The position numbers were made by a program, and so were the translations under genes. The notes under the pieces were generated by a model. That model worked only from the letters and a program-made list of their open reading frames with translations, had not been told where the DNA came from and did not search any database. DNA of 53,830 bases from an uncultured bacterium (GTDB taxonomy: Bacteria; Vulcanimicrobiota; Vulcanimicrobiia; Vulcanimicrobiales; Vulcanimicrobiaceae). How positions within the stretch are numbered: the first letter of the stretch is position 1; every line of letters begins with the position of its first letter. This document shows, piece after piece, positions 1,445 through 38,114 of this stretch. The stretch covers positions 1-53,830 of the forward strand of contig CAIKPM010000020.1 in assembly GCA_903829325.1 (NCBI GenBank), given 5' to 3'.

Positions 1445-2635
1445 ATGATGAGAAAACTTACGAATTTTGCTGCGCATCTGATTGCCACGCTTCCATTTCT
1501 GCTTGTCACGATGCGTCCAGCACAGGCCATGCCTACATTCGCGCAGGCACTTGGTGTTTCGTGTGAGATGTGTCATACAATTGTTCCGCAGCTTAATGCG
1601 TATGGACGTTATGTCCAGCGTACCGCGTATAGCGTGCTGAGTCAGCGGAAGCTTTCGCGTGAAGCGCCGCTTTGGATTGGCGAAGGCGGCGCATATAATT
1701 CTTCCAATACCCCCGACGGAGGAGTCCCCAAAACGTCGTTTGGGAATCTTGAAGTGCATGCGGTTGGTTATCTCAACAAGAATGAAACATATCATCTTCA
1801 GCAATGGATAACGCAACAGGATCAACCCGGCGGGCTTGATACGGCCTGGGTTGCTCAAAATAATATGCTCAATAATCGCGGGCATCTTTTCGTCGGAAAA
1901 ATTGAAAATCTAGTGCCATCAATTTATACTCAAGGGTTTGATATTGATGGGGCTTCTGCCTCAGCAACGCTGGTCGGCGAACACGATTGGGGTGCGACGA
2001 ATGATAATCGCTGGGGTTCGAAATACGCGTATGTCACCCAACGACTTGATCTTGAAATCGGCTACTTCTTAAGCGGCGAAGATCTCAACGGTGCGACTGA
2101 CTTCGGTCCGAACGAGCGCAGTATCCAGTGGAAAATGGCGTTAGCACGTCCTGATCAGCCTATTGAGGGTGGTTTTTTTGGTAGCTTCGGCTCCATCCCC
2201 GTTTCAACAGGACTTGATCGTTATCGGTCTTTAGCCATGTACGTGCAGGCTGACCCAAGTGCCCATGGTCGTCCGGGGGTATTGGCCGTGTACCAATTTG
2301 CAGGTGATTCTGCGCCTGGTCAAGATCCGCTGACCCAAGTGCCGCTTGGGCCCACAACGAGCCGCGGTGGAAGTTTGGAAATATTTGAGAATCTTTTTTC
2401 CAACAATGCGGTGATTAGCGTGCGGCATGATTTTAATGTTGCGGTTAATTCAACTGTGAACAACGATTCGGTGGTGAACTTAGCGTTCAATGTCCCACAT
2501 GCACCGTATATGCATGCGTACATCGAATCAGCGTTGGGTGCGCTCTCGACTACACCCGCGATGCAACCAACGTGGAAAGCAGGCATCTTATGGGCGGTCC
2601 CTGTCCAGCTCCACCATGCTAGCCCCCATTCCTAG
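1445..2635 (+). CDS. Cyc2-like monohaem cytochrome-porin candidate (396 aa)
   Basis: A signal peptide ends at AQA (28), then the mature protein begins MPTFAQALGVSCEMCH with a single haem motif CEMCH at 40-44, followed by VPQLNAYGR. About 330 residues rich in Gly, Asn, Ser and aromatics with alternating hydrophobicity follow, as in outer-membrane beta-barrels. Length and layout match the Cyc2 family of fused cytochrome-porins, known for Fe(II) oxidation in Acidithiobacillus and Zetaproteobacteria. The start (ATG ATG) is three bases after the cytochrome c stop. The paralogue at 33850 has its CxxCH at the same residue numbers and shares a VRH-D/E-F/L-N motif. Unlike that paralogue it ends in a His/Ser tail rather than an aromatic residue. 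Family membership is inferred from pattern; substrate unknown. Confidence 0.65.
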   Translation: MMRKLTNFAAHLIATLPFLLVTMRPAQAMPTFAQALGVSCEMCHTIVPQLNAYGRYVQRTAYSVLSQRKLSREAPLWIGEGGAYNSSNTPDGGVPKTSFGNLEVHAVGYLNKNETYHLQQWITQQDQPGGLDTAWVAQNNMLNNRGHLFVGKIENLVPSIYTQGFDIDGASASATLVGEHDWGATNDNRWGSKYAYVTQRLDLEIGYFLSGEDLNGATDFGPNERSIQWKMALARPDQPIEGGFFGSFGSIPVSTGLDRYRSLAMYVQADPSAHGRPGVLAVYQFAGDSAPGQDPLTQVPLGPTTSRGGSLEIFENLFSNNAVISVRHDFNVAVNSTVNNDSVVNLAFNVPHAPYMHAYIESALGALSTTPAMQPTWKAGILWAVPVQLHHASPHS

Positions 2636-32041: not shown

Positions 32042-33313
32042 CTACCGGCACTCGACACGCAGAATCTCATCGATCCTTGTCGAAAACGACGGTGATCGCA
32101 TAGTGCGCTTCATCTCCCATGATGGCTGCGTGCCCATGCTTCCGTAGAATAGCGTATGCTGTCCCCAGCGTTTATTGGCCGTGTCGAGCATGCCCATGAG
32201 TGTTGTTTGCTGCTCGATGTTCGGTCCATCAAACAGATGTAATTGTTGTTCGTCTACGGCGCTCAGTCCCGATAGCATGAGGCCCGCTTTGACGTATGAA
32301 ATGCCAGGGCGGAACCCGCTCCTTACGCCGCGGATGGCGTATGCCAGTAGCTCGGGCGTGTAGGCGGTTGCTGTGGGGATATCGTAGCCTCTGCGGCTTT
32401 CGTGAAAGGGCTGCTTGAAGCGGCTCGAGTGGAAAAAGATATCAATCCGACTCGCCAAACGCTGCTCTGCGCGGAGTTTCTCGGCGGCGCGCGTCGTGTA
32501 TTTTGTCAGCGCAGCAATAATCTCGTCAGTATCGGTAATTGGTCGACCAAACATCCGCGACGTGGTGATGCTTTTTTTTGCTGGTGGTTGCTCGTTGTAA
32601 GCAAAGCAGGCTATTCCGCGTAATTCGTGCACCGTACGCAAACCGGTGATCTGCATATGCTGCCTTATCCAACTATCGGGCATCCCTGCTAATTCAAGCG
32701 CACTCTGGATGCCGTATGCTGCGAGCATCTTGCCGTGCTGCCGACCAATGCCCCAGATATCGCGAACTGCAAATCCGGCGAGGAGCGTGCGACGCATTGC
32801 ATCATCTTCGATAATCGCGACGCCATTGGATTTTTTTGCAATCTGGCTCGCAAGTTTGGCGAGCGTTTTCGTCGGAGCGATGCCGATGGAAACGGGGATG
32901 CCGGTCCATTGTCGGACCGTATCACGGATGTTTTTTGCATATGCGTGAAGATCCTGATGTCGGAATTTCGAGAGATCACAGAATGCCTCATCGATAGAAT
33001 AAATCTCAACATCAGACGTGATTTGTGCCAGCGTGCGCATGACACGCTGCGACATATCTCCATAGAGTTCGTAGTTGCTGGAACGCACTTGGATGTTATG
33101 TTCTGCAATCAAACTGCGTACCTTAAAATACGGTGCACCCATCGGGATGCCGAGCTGTTTTGCTTCATTGCTTCGCGCGATGATGCACCCATCGTTATTG
33201 GAGAGCACAACAAGCGGTTTGCTGTTCAGCTTGGGTTGAAACACACGCTCACACGACGCGTAGAAGTTATTGCAGTCAATGAGCGCATAGAGCGGCGTAT
33301 TATTCGTGTGCAT
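32042..33313 (-). CDS. umuC: DNA polymerase V catalytic subunit UmuC (423 aa)
   Basis: Y-family translesion polymerase. Catalytic motifs: ALIDCNNFYASCERVF (first Asp), VLSNNDGCIIARS, and EIYSIDEAFCDL (Asp-Glu pair). The little-finger domain follows, with FGRPITDTDEI. EQQLHLFDG near the C-terminus is a QLxLF-type beta-clamp-binding motif. Full length for UmuC (E. coli 422). It overlaps umuD by 14 bases, as in classical umuDC operons, and should be SOS-induced from the LexA box upstream of umuD. It converges on the Dps-like gene. Confidence 0.96.
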   Translation of the reverse strand: MHTNNTPLYALIDCNNFYASCERVFQPKLNSKPLVVLSNNDGCIIARSNEAKQLGIPMGAPYFKVRSLIAEHNIQVRSSNYELYGDMSQRVMRTLAQITSDVEIYSIDEAFCDLSKFRHQDLHAYAKNIRDTVRQWTGIPVSIGIAPTKTLAKLASQIAKKSNGVAIIEDDAMRRTLLAGFAVRDIWGIGRQHGKMLAAYGIQSALELAGMPDSWIRQHMQITGLRTVHELRGIACFAYNEQPPAKKSITTSRMFGRPITDTDEIIAALTKYTTRAAEKLRAEQRLASRIDIFFHSSRFKQPFHESRRGYDIPTATAYTPELLAYAIRGVRSGFRPGISYVKAGLMLSGLSAVDEQQLHLFDGPNIEQQTTLMGMLDTANKRWGQHTLFYGSMGTQPSWEMKRTMRSPSFSTRIDEILRVECR

Positions 33314-33737
33314 GTCCGTGAATGCGGATGGTGTGCTTTACAACACCCCAGACGTTGAGTTCTGTGGTGACGCGTATTGGCTTGTAGTGGGCGTTTTCAG
33401 CGTAGAGCCACGGTTGGCCAGCAATGATGCGCAGGCGCTTGAGGGTGAATTCGCCGTTGAGCTCTGCGACTATTAAGCTCCCGTTCACTGGCCTCAGTGC
33501 GCGATTGACGATGATCAGGTCGCCATCAAAAATGCCTGCGCCTTCCATCGAGTCCCCCGCTGCGCGCGTGATAAAGGTCGCCGGCTCATTCTCAATGAGC
33601 AGCTCATTGAGATCGATATGCCCATCGAGATGATCATCTGCGGGCGAGGGAAAGCCAGCTTGCACTGGCGCTAGGGCGAGCCTGACGCGCTTGGCTGGAC
33701 GTGCTTGGAGCTCGCGGGGGCGGATTATGGACTGCAT
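33300..33737 (-). CDS. umuD: UmuD-like self-cleaving subunit of DNA polymerase V (145 aa)
   Basis: S24 peptidase-fold protein that cleaves itself on RecA filaments to give active UmuD'. The cleavage site is Ala27-Gly28 in QAGFPSPADDHLD (E. coli UmuD has Cys-Gly; Ala-Gly is the LexA form). Catalytic Ser63 lies in GDSMEGAGIFDGD and Lys100 in GEFTLKRLR. Length is close to the E. coli protein. ATG at 33737 lies three bases from a LexA-type palindrome and has no clear ribosome-binding site. It is divergent from the Cyc2-like gene at 33850. Confidence 0.95.
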   Translation of the reverse strand: MQSIIRPRELQARPAKRVRLALAPVQAGFPSPADDHLDGHIDLNELLIENEPATFITRAAGDSMEGAGIFDGDLIIVNRALRPVNGSLIVAELNGEFTLKRLRIIAGQPWLYAENAHYKPIRVTTELNVWGVVKHTIRIHGHAHE

Positions 33738-33849: not shown

Positions 33850-35007
33850 ATGAGAAAATTAGCCTTTCCGAATATTGCGCCGATAGCTTTAACAATAGCG
33901 TTGACGTTCGGAGTGATGTCACCCGCCTCGGCGATTCCGGTTTTCGCGCATCGTTACGGTTTCTCGTGTCAGGTGTGTCATACGGTTGTTCCTCATCTGA
34001 CATCCTTCGGACGCATGTTCTTGGCCAACGGGTATCGCATCCCGGGCGTCAGGCCTAAAGGGGCCTTCCCCATCGCTGTGCGAGTGGAAAGCGCCTATGC
34101 GAGTGCAGGAGCGGCCGATCCTGACGAAAGTTCAGGCCCCTTGCCTAAGGCGATCGTGGACGAGGTAGAGGCGTTTATCGGAGGCGCGTCTGGTTCACGC
34201 GGATCTTACTGGGTGGAGAATTATTTCGTCGACGGTGGTGAATCGGGGCATCTGCGTGATGCTTGGTATGCAAATCGCTTGACCGCGGACGGTGCGAAAG
34301 TTCCGGTCGTTGCGCGTATCGGACAATTTACGCTGCCATTGCCCCTTGATCCGGAAACATTGCGCGAAACCACGCAGCCATATCTTATTTGGGGACAAAC
34401 CGCAGGCAGTAATCCATTTTCGTTTTTCCCCGCAAAGGCTGGCATACAGACGGAAATCGGCGATCCGGGGCGTGGATTAGCTGGTTCGCTTAATCTTATT
34501 CAAGGGCGCGAACCTGGATCAGGTCTTCAACCAAACGGTCTCGACAGAATGCTAAGCATCGAACGCGAGTACGGTGATTGGACGCTTTCAGCATATCGAT
34601 ACACTGGGAAACGTCAACTGCAAGGCTTGGGCTACGGGGGAACATTTCAAGTCAGTAATGTCGGGGATTCCTTTTGGCGTAATGGTTACGGGGTCAGCTG
34701 GAATCACGGTAAAAATGAGGTCGATGCGGTTTATCAAATCGGCCATGATAGCTCGGCCGATCTTTATCATAATGCGCTCATGACCAGCGGTGGTTTTGTA
34801 CAAGTGCGACATGAACTCAACAGCCGTTCTTTTGCCATTGCGCGCTGGGACGCGACCCAAGATGCCGCCTCGCAACGCAGTATCACTGCCGGCCTGGGAG
34901 TCCGTCCACGTCCGAATATGCGCGTCACTTTGTTTGAAACGCAACAACGTGATTATCTCGGTAATCTACTGCATATTATCTCGTCTTCATGGCTTTTTGC
35001 CTATTAA
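33850..35007 (+). CDS. Cyc2-like monohaem cytochrome-porin candidate, second copy (385 aa)
   Basis: A signal peptide ends PASA (28). The mature N-terminus IPVFAHRYGFSCQVCHTVVP carries one haem motif CQVCH at 40-44, followed by HLTSFGRMF. The remaining 320 residues have a beta-barrel composition. The protein ends SSWLFAY, and a terminal aromatic is the usual outer-membrane assembly signal. Layout and length fit Cyc2-type fused cytochrome-porins, which pass electrons from outside the cell to the periplasm. The paralogue at 1445 has the haem at identical residues. Fifteen bases downstream begins a multicopper oxidase, then a CusF-SCO copper chaperone. This context suggests metal or copper-linked electron transfer. 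Fold and function are inferred. Confidence 0.7.
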   Translation: MRKLAFPNIAPIALTIALTFGVMSPASAIPVFAHRYGFSCQVCHTVVPHLTSFGRMFLANGYRIPGVRPKGAFPIAVRVESAYASAGAADPDESSGPLPKAIVDEVEAFIGGASGSRGSYWVENYFVDGGESGHLRDAWYANRLTADGAKVPVVARIGQFTLPLPLDPETLRETTQPYLIWGQTAGSNPFSFFPAKAGIQTEIGDPGRGLAGSLNLIQGREPGSGLQPNGLDRMLSIEREYGDWTLSAYRYTGKRQLQGLGYGGTFQVSNVGDSFWRNGYGVSWNHGKNEVDAVYQIGHDSSADLYHNALMTSGGFVQVRHELNSRSFAIARWDATQDAASQRSITAGLGVRPRPNMRVTLFETQQRDYLGNLLHIISSSWLFAY

Positions 35008-35022
35008 GGGGATCTCAAAAAG

Positions 35023-36615
35023 ATGAATGATCCAACCATACGTTCACCTTTTTTGCGATTTTCACGCGGAATGATTGCATGCATTCTCGCGTCGCTTCTT
35101 GCTGCTTGTGGCGGGGGTGGAAGTAGCGCGCCTGTGGTGAGTGCTACCTCTGGGGCCGGCGGAGCGATCAACGCGCTAAACGTCATTCCTGAGGTGGATA
35201 GTATTAACGGTGTAGCGACGCTTACGTTGACCGCAAAATTTGATGCGACTGGGCGACCGGCGTTCTTTTACAATGGTCAAAAAACAGCACCGACAATTCG
35301 CGTACAACCGGGCGATTCGATTCATCTCGAATTTATTAATCAGTTACCCCAGTTTTGCGCGGCAGGGGTGCAAACGGATTCGAATCTGCATTTTCACGGT
35401 TTGAATTCCGCACCAGTTCAACCCGGTGACGAAGTCATTACAACGCTGGCCGCACCTGGAAATACGCTAAATTACACCGTGGTGATCAATCCTGATCAGC
35501 CGTCTGGTCTATATTGGTATCATCCGCATCCACACGGCTTATCTTCCTACGAGGTCGGCAATGGAATGGCCGGGGCAATCATCGTTGATGGTATAGCCAA
35601 TAGCGTCCCGCAAACGGCAGGCTTGCGTGAGCGCACCATTATTCTTGGCGATGTGCCGAACAATATGTCGTTTACCGCGGGTGAAGAATCGCGTTACCGA
35701 AAAGCCGAGACTATCCGACGTGTGCAAGACGATGACTCTGCGTCCGTTGCTTGCGCGCCCGAAACCAACGGGACGCCGATGATTAATGGTCAATCGTTTG
35801 CCTCGATCGGTATTAAACCCGGCGAAACCGAATTGTTTCGCGTAGTTAATGCATCTGGCCATCGTCATTTTAATCTATCGTTTGATAGTGCACCTATGCA
35901 AATTGTTGCGCAAGACGGTGTCCCGATTGGGGAATACCCCGGTGCGCCTCAGAGCTTGACTGCTACGAATATCGTGATTCCCCCGGCTGGTCGAGTTGAG
36001 TTTCTCATTACCGGCAAAACATCTCCGATTTCGATGACATCACTGTGCTATAACGCCGGCCCAGCGGGGGATGCCAATCCTCAGGTGGTGCTTGGGGCGC
36101 TCGTGAACGATAGCAATTGGCCTGCGAGCTTGCAAACTGCGGTTAAGCGGGTTCCCGCTGCGGCGAAGGGACTGCGGCGTTCACTCTATTATGCGACTTC
36201 GATGCCTGCCCCAAGCGCACAGCGCACGATCCGTTTTTCTGAAGATGCCAATGGCTTTTATCTCGACGGTCAGGCGTATAATCCATCAGGGCCTCCGTCG
36301 ATCGTAGCGCATAGTGGGACGACCGAAGAATGGACGTTAGAAAACGATTCGGATGAAGTCCACGCGTTCCATATTCATCAAACCCATTTTATTGTTGAGA
36401 GTATCAATGGGCAAACGCAAAGCAATCCCCACTGGCTTGATACGATCGATATTCCCGCGCAAGCACATGGCGTTCAAGGGCAGGTTGTGCCAGCAACGGT
36501 GAAGGTGCTTATTGATTTTCGCGATCCAACGATTCGTGGTACCTTTCTCTATCATTGCCATATTCTCGATCATGAGGATGGCGGGATGATGGCGAAGATT
36601 CAAGTTATCTCATGA
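35023..36615 (+). CDS. Lipoprotein multicopper oxidase (530 aa)
   Basis: Three-cupredoxin-domain oxidase coupling substrate oxidation to O2 reduction. A lipobox LAAC at 26-29 with Gly-rich residues after the Cys predicts a lipid anchor in the envelope. All four copper motifs are intact: HFH (123-125), WYHPHPHG (167-171), HAFHIH (447-452), and FLYHCHILDHEDGGMM with Cys512, His517 and Met522 of the type 1 site. It resembles CotA/FtsP-like oxidases. Possible substrates are Cu(I), Fe(II), Mn(II) or phenolics; sequence does not decide. It sits between a Cyc2-like gene (15-base gap) and the SCO gene (ATGA overlap), so function within one electron-transfer or copper-handling unit is likely. Confidence 0.9.
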   Translation: MNDPTIRSPFLRFSRGMIACILASLLAACGGGGSSAPVVSATSGAGGAINALNVIPEVDSINGVATLTLTAKFDATGRPAFFYNGQKTAPTIRVQPGDSIHLEFINQLPQFCAAGVQTDSNLHFHGLNSAPVQPGDEVITTLAAPGNTLNYTVVINPDQPSGLYWYHPHPHGLSSYEVGNGMAGAIIVDGIANSVPQTAGLRERTIILGDVPNNMSFTAGEESRYRKAETIRRVQDDDSASVACAPETNGTPMINGQSFASIGIKPGETELFRVVNASGHRHFNLSFDSAPMQIVAQDGVPIGEYPGAPQSLTATNIVIPPAGRVEFLITGKTSPISMTSLCYNAGPAGDANPQVVLGALVNDSNWPASLQTAVKRVPAAAKGLRRSLYYATSMPAPSAQRTIRFSEDANGFYLDGQAYNPSGPPSIVAHSGTTEEWTLENDSDEVHAFHIHQTHFIVESINGQTQSNPHWLDTIDIPAQAHGVQGQVVPATVKVLIDFRDPTIRGTFLYHCHILDHEDGGMMAKIQVIS

Positions 36616-37418
36616 GATTTTTTGCGCGAATCATTTCTCCAGCAATATTTTTGCTGTCCATGATTTCTTGCAGTTCTGCGAACCGCCCCAGTCACGTTTA
36701 CCATCTGCAAGCAACGGTGCTCGAAATTGAGGGCAATGGGCGAATTTTTGCTCATCATAACGCGTTTCATGGCATGCCCGCCATGACAATGGAATTCGCT
36801 GTACAAGACCCCTCTAAGCTACAGCCGGGAGATTTGATTGAAGCCGACGTTGATACGAATGGGGATGTCTGGAGTCTGAGCAACGTCAAGCGACATCCGC
36901 GAGCTGTCGTTCAGGCGAGCGCGCGAATCCCGTTGGTTGTGGTTGGCGATCGATTGCCAGACGTAGTGCTGCACGATCAAAATGGTGCGGTTCGCAGGTG
37001 GAAAGATTTTGTCGGTCATCCTTTTGCACTGAGTTTTATTTATACGCGCTGCCAAGATCCCCGTATGTGTCCGGCGACAACTGCGAAGTTTGTACAAGCA
37101 GCTCACCTTTTAGCCGCTGGTCGGGCGCGGTTTGCAGAGCTAACGCTTGATCCCGAGCATGATACCCCTCGGGTTTTGCGCGTATATCAACATCGGTATG
37201 GGATTGATCCCAAGGTCATGGTGTTGTTGCTTTCAGAGTCGCGCTCTACGAAGGCTTTTGCCGAACGTTTAGGCGTTCTCGAGCGAGCGGTTCCAGGCGC
37301 TATTTTGCATACGGAACGGGTGGTTATTGTGGATGCCCGCGGCCGCATAAAGCGATTTTTTAACGACACCGATTGGCGCGCGACGGATGTTGCCGCCGCG
37401 CTAAGCCTTATCTTGTAA
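36612..37418 (+). CDS. CusF-SCO1 fusion copper chaperone (268 aa)
   Basis: The N-terminal signal ends at Cys20 (MISC), a plausible lipobox. Residues about 28-95 are a CusF-like copper-binding domain with HHNAFHGMPAMTMEF, containing the His and Met ligands. Residues about 108-268 are an SCO1/SenC thioredoxin fold with copper cysteines 147 and 153. These lie in TRCQDPRMCP, a Cx5C spacing rather than the usual Cx3C, and the third ligand His is at 233. Such proteins load copper into cytochrome oxidase CuA or other cuproproteins. With no oxidase gene nearby, the adjacent multicopper oxidase is the obvious client. The stop codon lies inside an intrinsic terminator. Confidence 0.9.
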   Translation: MRFFARIISPAIFLLSMISCSSANRPSHVYHLQATVLEIEGNGRIFAHHNAFHGMPAMTMEFAVQDPSKLQPGDLIEADVDTNGDVWSLSNVKRHPRAVVQASARIPLVVVGDRLPDVVLHDQNGAVRRWKDFVGHPFALSFIYTRCQDPRMCPATTAKFVQAAHLLAAGRARFAELTLDPEHDTPRVLRVYQHRYGIDPKVMVLLLSESRSTKAFAERLGVLERAVPGAILHTERVVIVDARGRIKRFFNDTDWRATDVAAALSLIL

Positions 37419-37427
37419 GGCTTTTTC
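37403..37427 (+). terminator. Intrinsic terminator of the Cyc2-like/MCO/SCO operon
   Basis: AAGCCTTA (37403-37410) pairs with TAAGGCTT (37416-37423) around TCTTG, followed by further Ts. The stop codon TAA of the SCO gene is the first part of the right arm. Confidence 0.8.
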
Positions 37428-37479
37428 GCGCACCATTGTCTAGGGAGTATCGCCGAACACTGCCCAGTAGTGTGGCGTA

Positions 37480-37960: not shown

Positions 37961-38036
37961 TTGGTAGCCCCAGCGGGATTCGAACCCGCGTTGCCGCCGT
38001 GAGAGGGCAGCGTCCTAGGCCTCTAGACGATAGGGC
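37961..38036 (-). tRNA. tRNA-Glu (anticodon CTC)
   Basis: 76 bases with encoded CCA. The acceptor stem closes with a G-U first pair. The D-arm region is TCGTCTAGAGGCC, the anticodon stem-loop CTGCC-CTCTCAC-GGCGG gives CTC, and the T-arm is GCGGGTTCGAATCCCGC. It differs little from the standard bacterial tRNA-Glu. Transcribed behind tRNA-Gln with seven bases between. Confidence 0.95.
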
Positions 38037-38043
38037 CGTCTTG

Positions 38044-38114
38044 CTCCGGGCCATGGATTCGAACCACGATAGACAGATTCAGAGTCTGTCGTCCTACCAT
38101 TAGACGAGCCCGGA
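38044..38114 (-). tRNA. tRNA-Gln (anticodon CTG)
   Basis: 71 bases without encoded CCA (CAA follows the discriminator G). Acceptor TCCGGGC/GCCCGGA, anticodon stem-loop ACAGA-CTCTGAA-TCTGT giving CTG, and T-arm CGTGG-TTCGAAT-CCATG. All stems pair. First gene of the two-tRNA unit. Confidence 0.94.

Follow-up and report, generated by a model that had tools for sequence, protein, structure and literature searches.

A Cyc2-like cytochrome-porin, a lipoprotein multicopper oxidase and a CusF-SCO chaperone encoded together in an uncultured Eremiobacterota bacterium: a candidate outer-membrane metal-oxidation unit

An operon at positions 33850-37418 of contig 20 (53,830 nucleotides, hereafter the window) from the 1.89-Mb genome of an uncultured soil-type bacterium of Candidatus Eremiobacterota may encode a metal-oxidation unit of the outer membrane, a reading to which we give about even odds. 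Its three open reading frames, all on the + strand, code for a Cyc2-like cytochrome-porin (gene 1, 385 aa, 33850-35007), a three-domain lipoprotein multicopper oxidase (MCO; gene 2, 530 aa, 35023-36615) and a periplasmic copper chaperone made of fused CusF and SCO1/SenC domains (gene 3, 268 aa, 36612-37418). Electrons would pass from the haem-porin to the MCO and from there to O2, with copper supplied by the CusF-SCO protein. Genes 1 and 2 are 15 bases apart (35008-35022), genes 2 and 3 overlap by ATGA (36612-36615), and a hairpin followed by five Ts (37403-37424, + strand), resembling an intrinsic terminator, holds the final TAA of gene 3 (37416-37418) within its 3' arm. The predicted fold of 37398-37432 (-15.9 kcal/mol, z = -3.8) was equalled by none of 200 shuffled sequences, although a consensus terminator scan did not list this hairpin. 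The junctions and the terminator built into the last stop codon had been recognized in a first-pass annotation of this DNA, and both are borne out here.

Gene 1 starts with a signal peptide, after which comes its only haem-binding motif, C40QVCH44, in AIPVFAHRYGFSCQVCHTVVPHL. Sixteen predicted β-strands follow the haem domain and the chain ends in an aromatic residue, Tyr385, as the first-pass annotation had pointed out. The AlphaFold2 (AF2) model, computed from 35 sequences (mean pLDDT 80.9, pTM 0.79), combines a helical haem domain with exactly 16 strands, the last one spanning residues 373-384; both parts of the proposed architecture are therefore present in the predicted structure. Foldseek matched this model to 16-strand porins, namely DcaP (1.3e-10), Omp32-type porins, OmpF and OprP, and it is this type of porin that has been used to model Cyc2, which argues in favor of the proposed function. 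No family was assigned to gene 1 by Pfam (none at E <= 1) or NCBIfam, no convincing match was found among PDB sequences, and weak matches to a DARPin and to cytochrome c3 were dismissed as chance. Relatives found by sequence, where named, are mostly metagenome-assembled genomes (MAGs) of Candidatus Eremiobacterota. Identity within the family is about 40-45% across the phylum, and C40, C43, H44, P48 and L50 are invariant in 22 homologues.

Cyc2 proteins carry the motif AXPXFAR[Q/K][T/Y] upstream of CXXCH and PXL downstream of it, and have been modelled as 16 strands on OprO/OprP (Keffer 2021, PMC8406198). With Cyc2 (McAllister 2020, PMC7029218; Keffer 2021), gene 1 shares the signal peptide with a single CXXCH close behind it in an AxPxFA context, PXL four residues past CXXCH (TVVPHL; P48, L50), a length above the minimum of 365 aa, and a fused 16-strand porin barrel, recovered in both the AF2 prediction and the Foldseek matches. 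The arrangement AIPVFAHRY-GFS-CQVCH-TVV-PHL keeps the spacing and most residues of the Cyc2 motif: A, P, F, A and Y conform, while His replaces Arg and Arg replaces Gln/Lys. Homology was also recovered by hhalign, which aligned the gene 1 family with four proteobacterial proteins (probability 98.3, E 1.9e-14), two of which have the full canonical motif and none of which is an assayed iron oxidase. A plasmid search with gene 1, used as a source of canonical-motif proteins, returned short partial matches only. Judged by sequence, gene 1 is thus Cyc2-like and homologous to Cyc2-type proteins. Strict membership in Cyc2 is ruled out by the two deviating positions, both constrained, and we therefore speak of a Cyc2-like protein rather than of Cyc2; the cytochrome-porin proposed by the first-pass annotation stands in its haem domain, barrel and profile homology, but not as Cyc2 in the strict sense. 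The gene also differs from Cyc2 in its surroundings, since it adjoins an MCO gene and not genes for c-type cytochromes or cox genes.

The MCO exceeds the cut-offs for Cu-oxidase_3, Cu-oxidase and Cu-oxidase_2 (61.4, 44 and 61 bits), has a lipobox cysteine (Cys29 in LLAACGGGG), and presents the motifs HFH (123-125), HPH (167-169), HAFHIH (447-452) and HCHILDHEDGGM (511-522). The T1, T2 and T3 ligands are complete, Met522 being the T1 axial ligand, in agreement with the earlier description of a lipoprotein oxidase with all its copper ligands. Its best match among PDB sequences is 2xu9 (E 2.5e-36), and it shares fold, domain order and ligand set with the Thermus thermophilus laccase and CueO-like three-domain MCOs, from which it differs in being a lipoprotein without a Met-rich segment. 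Assignment as a CueO equivalog (110.2 vs a cut-off of 525 bits) or as PcoA/CopA (TIGR01480; 73.8 vs 478.95 bits) was rejected. No Met-rich copper signature was found in the window's proteins. At four other loci (L138, L139, L140 and L142), sister MCOs of this oxidase and its counterparts in the other trio loci lie behind a gene whose product is not a cytochrome-porin but a secreted protein marked by KIxHIIVIYxENWSFD, which by eye looks phosphoesterase-like.

Both domains of gene 3 are over their cut-offs, as expected of the copper chaperone first proposed, the match to CusF_Ec being marginal (27.4 bits, cut-off 27; motif GMPAMTM) and that to SCO1-SenC clear (PF02630; 49.4 bits, cut-off 22.8). 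The SCO1 motif reads C147-x5-C153-P, with C-x5-C in place of C-x3-C, and is completed by a distal His233. Searches of the genome revealed a cytochrome c assembly protein, two COX1 genes and further SCO-like genes; on contig 69, one of the latter precedes a COX1 gene by about 0.9 kb. Because this other SCO gene adjoins COX1, the window's CusF-SCO copy is probably not the one that serves the respiratory oxidase, and a chaperone dedicated to the neighboring MCO becomes more plausible. RuBisCO was sought in the genome and not found, which makes it unlikely that iron oxidation supports autotrophy through the Calvin cycle.

The association of the three genes extends beyond this genome. When 149 Eremiobacterota genomes were searched with a profile of the trio-type gene 1, four loci scored 749-775 bits and all others at most 419 bits. 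These loci, of which one is in the window, two are in G093 and one is in G117 (hence 3 of the 149 genomes), all keep the order cytochrome-porin, MCO, SCO, and in phylogenetic trees their MCOs (100/99) and their porins (100/100) each form a single clade. Pfam detected CusF in the window and in L135; the GMPAMTM motif is visible in L136, and L137 lacks CusF and has an SCO with the usual CPDVCP. Chance adjacency within the trio clade was rejected on the strength of this conservation at every locus. The trio is more than a coincidence, given also that the genome has no Cu-oxidase_3 gene other than gene 2 and that clear genes for cytochrome-porins number only two, both within the window. The first-pass annotation would have abandoned its proposal had there been no haem domain plus barrel or no link to the oxidase; neither condition refuted it.

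Cytochrome-porins of Eremiobacterota fall into at least four clades (A-D), and their partners differ. Clade A, of which FAH is the hallmark, includes gene 1; some of its relatives read AIPAFSMQTG, nearer the canonical motif. Most clade-A genes have no MCO next door, so that the pairing is confined to particular subclades and the trio cannot be taken as typical of all Eremiobacterota Cyc2-like genes. Two more pairings with a lipoprotein MCO, apart from the trio, were found in this clade, directly downstream of the porin in L046 and after a YceI gene in L044, and the MCO-pairing label requires three changes on the clade A tree. Clade B proteins bear ANGQG or RTGA motifs, and in most of them the barrel is followed by one or two additional CXXCH motifs at the C-terminus, belonging to cytochrome c domains. 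A CopA-like MCO (TIGR01480, E 2e-60) occupies a position at or near the 3' end of the porin gene in 16 of 17 clade-B loci, as exemplified by L183 (9260-11173 and 7835-9256, - strand); the others are L184, L185, L186, L187, L189, L190, L191, L192, L193, L202, L206, L208, L213, L214 and L226. A stretch rich in Met separates barrel and cytochrome in only four clade-B proteins (L183, L186, L190 and L202). In clade C (AxPxFAQRY), an SCO gene lies 170-500 bases upstream in eight loci (L215, L217, L218, L219, L220, L222, L223 and L224), and genes for two-component regulators follow downstream in several loci; a TPR protein and a TonB-receptor-like gene also occur in several. Clade C loci are possibly copper- or metal-sensing units. 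Clade D includes the second Cyc2-like cytochrome-porin of the window (1445-2635, + strand, 396 aa, AMPTFAQALGVSCEMCH), which has no adjacent MCO or SCO gene. Overall, the trees show four separate pairings of Cyc2-like genes with MCOs. Eremiobacterota-type cytochrome-porins were also seen in two MAG records titled Rhodospirillales or Proteobacteria bacterium (L066 and L100), which may be mislabelled.

In the proposed outer-membrane unit, a reduced metal, either Fe(II) or Cu(I), would reduce the haem of gene 1 in or near the pore. The MCO, probably anchored to the outer membrane by its lipid, would accept electrons from this haem through its T1 copper, and O2 would be reduced to water at the trinuclear center of the enzyme, which CusF-SCO would have loaded with copper. 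We infer the step from haem to MCO because the gene linkage recurs and co-location of the two proteins at the outer membrane is plausible. Fe(II) as substrate is suggested by the relation to Cyc2, and Cu(I) by the CopA-type partners and Met-rich stretches of clade B. The unit would more likely serve to detoxify metals or to control their redox state than to support autotrophic growth. Several observations weigh against this proposal. The scarcity of neighboring MCOs in clade A means that the porin needs none in general, and close relatives of the MCO adjoin unrelated genes. Proteobacterial Cyc2-like loci have a c-type cytochrome as the next gene, and it may thus be to a cytochrome that electrons are usually passed. 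With His in place of Arg ahead of the haem, ligation of the haem and the function of the protein may be altered. Finally, since several MCOs are encoded in the genomes of L044 and L046, chance adjacency there is not negligible. More tentatively still, the pairing could constitute a two-protein outer-membrane oxidase, acquired several times within one phylum, in which a Cyc2-type haem-porin hands electrons from extracellular metals straight to an O2-reducing lipoprotein MCO and bypasses the respiratory chain.

Combinations of this kind are not without precedent, contrary to what the first-pass annotation had assumed in knowing of no described system with such a trio. Porin-MCO pairs (PcoAB) have been proposed as Fe(II)-oxidizing systems, and MofA/OmpB-type MCO clusters, which comprise a cytochrome c and an SCO1/SenC gene, have likewise been put forward for the oxidation of metals (He et al., 2017, PMC5566968). 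Compared as combinations of genes on the basis of that paper, the MofA/OmpB clusters likewise bring together an MCO, a cytochrome c and an SCO1 copper chaperone; their cytochrome is of the MofC type, with a periplasmic binding domain rather than a porin fusion, and their MCO, described as extracellular or outer-membrane, is of another type. PcoAB/CopAB shares with the window the adjacency of genes for an outer-membrane barrel and an MCO, together with periplasmic copper-chaperone genes, but PcoB has 10-12 strands and no haem whereas the barrel of gene 1 has 16 strands and a haem domain, and the window has an MCO outside the CopA model and CusF-SCO instead of CopC/PcoE (PMC5566968). In the open-access literature, no paper linking Cyc2-like genes to MCO genes was found, nor any pairing Eremiobacterota with multicopper oxidases.

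The likeness to PcoAB/CopAB opens another interpretation, copper defense, in which the MCO alone would oxidize Cu(I), the haem-porin would replace PcoB/CopB as a copper port and CusF-SCO would handle copper, with no electrons flowing from porin to MCO; the haem would then have a structural or sensory role or oxidize Cu(I) independently. Pco/Cop indeed has as its core an outer-membrane barrel next to an MCO (PMC7558416; PMC5566968), gene 3 carries CusF and SCO domains, the partner MCOs of clade B are CopA-like, and Met-rich stretches, as in the four clade-B proteins, are typical of copper binding. Nevertheless, this interpretation appears rather unlikely. The Pfam families that gene 1 fails to match include CopB, which is also absent from the five weak Pfam matches obtained among 22 members of the gene 1 family. 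Moreover, a haem domain as strictly kept as this one, with C40, C43, H44 and P48 present in all 22 homologues, would be superfluous for a mere port, and the window's own proteins lack the Met-rich stretch, its MCO falling far below both the CopA and the CueO cut-offs.

Respiration of Fe(II) as in Cyc2 organisms appears more improbable. Electrons would flow from the haem-porin through periplasmic carriers to a haem-copper oxidase, with conservation of energy, and the MCO and CusF-SCO would be co-transcribed copper or iron housekeeping genes. Consistent with this pathway are the Cyc2 architecture of gene 1 and the two COX1 genes, and a Cyc2-like gene had already been reported in a MAG of Eremiobacterota from acid mine drainage (PMC8357290). 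The missing RuBisCO speaks against it, although a heterotroph could still use the pathway. No gene for a cytochrome, cupredoxin or oxidase adjoins the porin, unlike in rus-type or proteobacterial Cyc2 loci, and the partner that is conserved is the MCO. Mere co-location, with MCO and SCO forming a unit and the porin a neighbor by chance or through shared regulation only, is very improbable: an MCO-SCO pair does occur without the porin in L149, and most clade-A porins lack an MCO, but all four trio-clade loci keep the three genes, the 15-base gap and the ATGA overlap join them, and MCO pairings are spread over separate parts of the Cyc2-like tree. Outer-membrane metal oxidation through both porin and MCO thus remains the reading that we prefer.

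On one side, the operon is flanked by divergently transcribed umuD/umuC-like genes (32042-33737, - strand), and on the other, past a small HTH-type gene, by tRNA-Glu and tRNA-Gln genes (37962-38114, - strand). Its site between the umuD/umuC-like genes and the tRNAs is a possible candidate insertion spot.

Cyc2-like genes serve as markers of iron-based energy metabolism, even though much of the family is of uncertain function (PMC8406198, PMC13264449). A Cyc2-like protein genetically tied to an O2-reducing MCO provides an alternative path for its electrons, and the small size of the trio makes expression and testing feasible. Since at least four clades of these porins occur in the phylum with different copper-protein partners, iron lithotrophy should not be concluded from the mere presence of the gene. 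If the two-protein outer-membrane oxidase proves true, some of the Cyc2-like genes now taken as indications of iron lithotrophy would instead encode metal-detoxifying oxidases.

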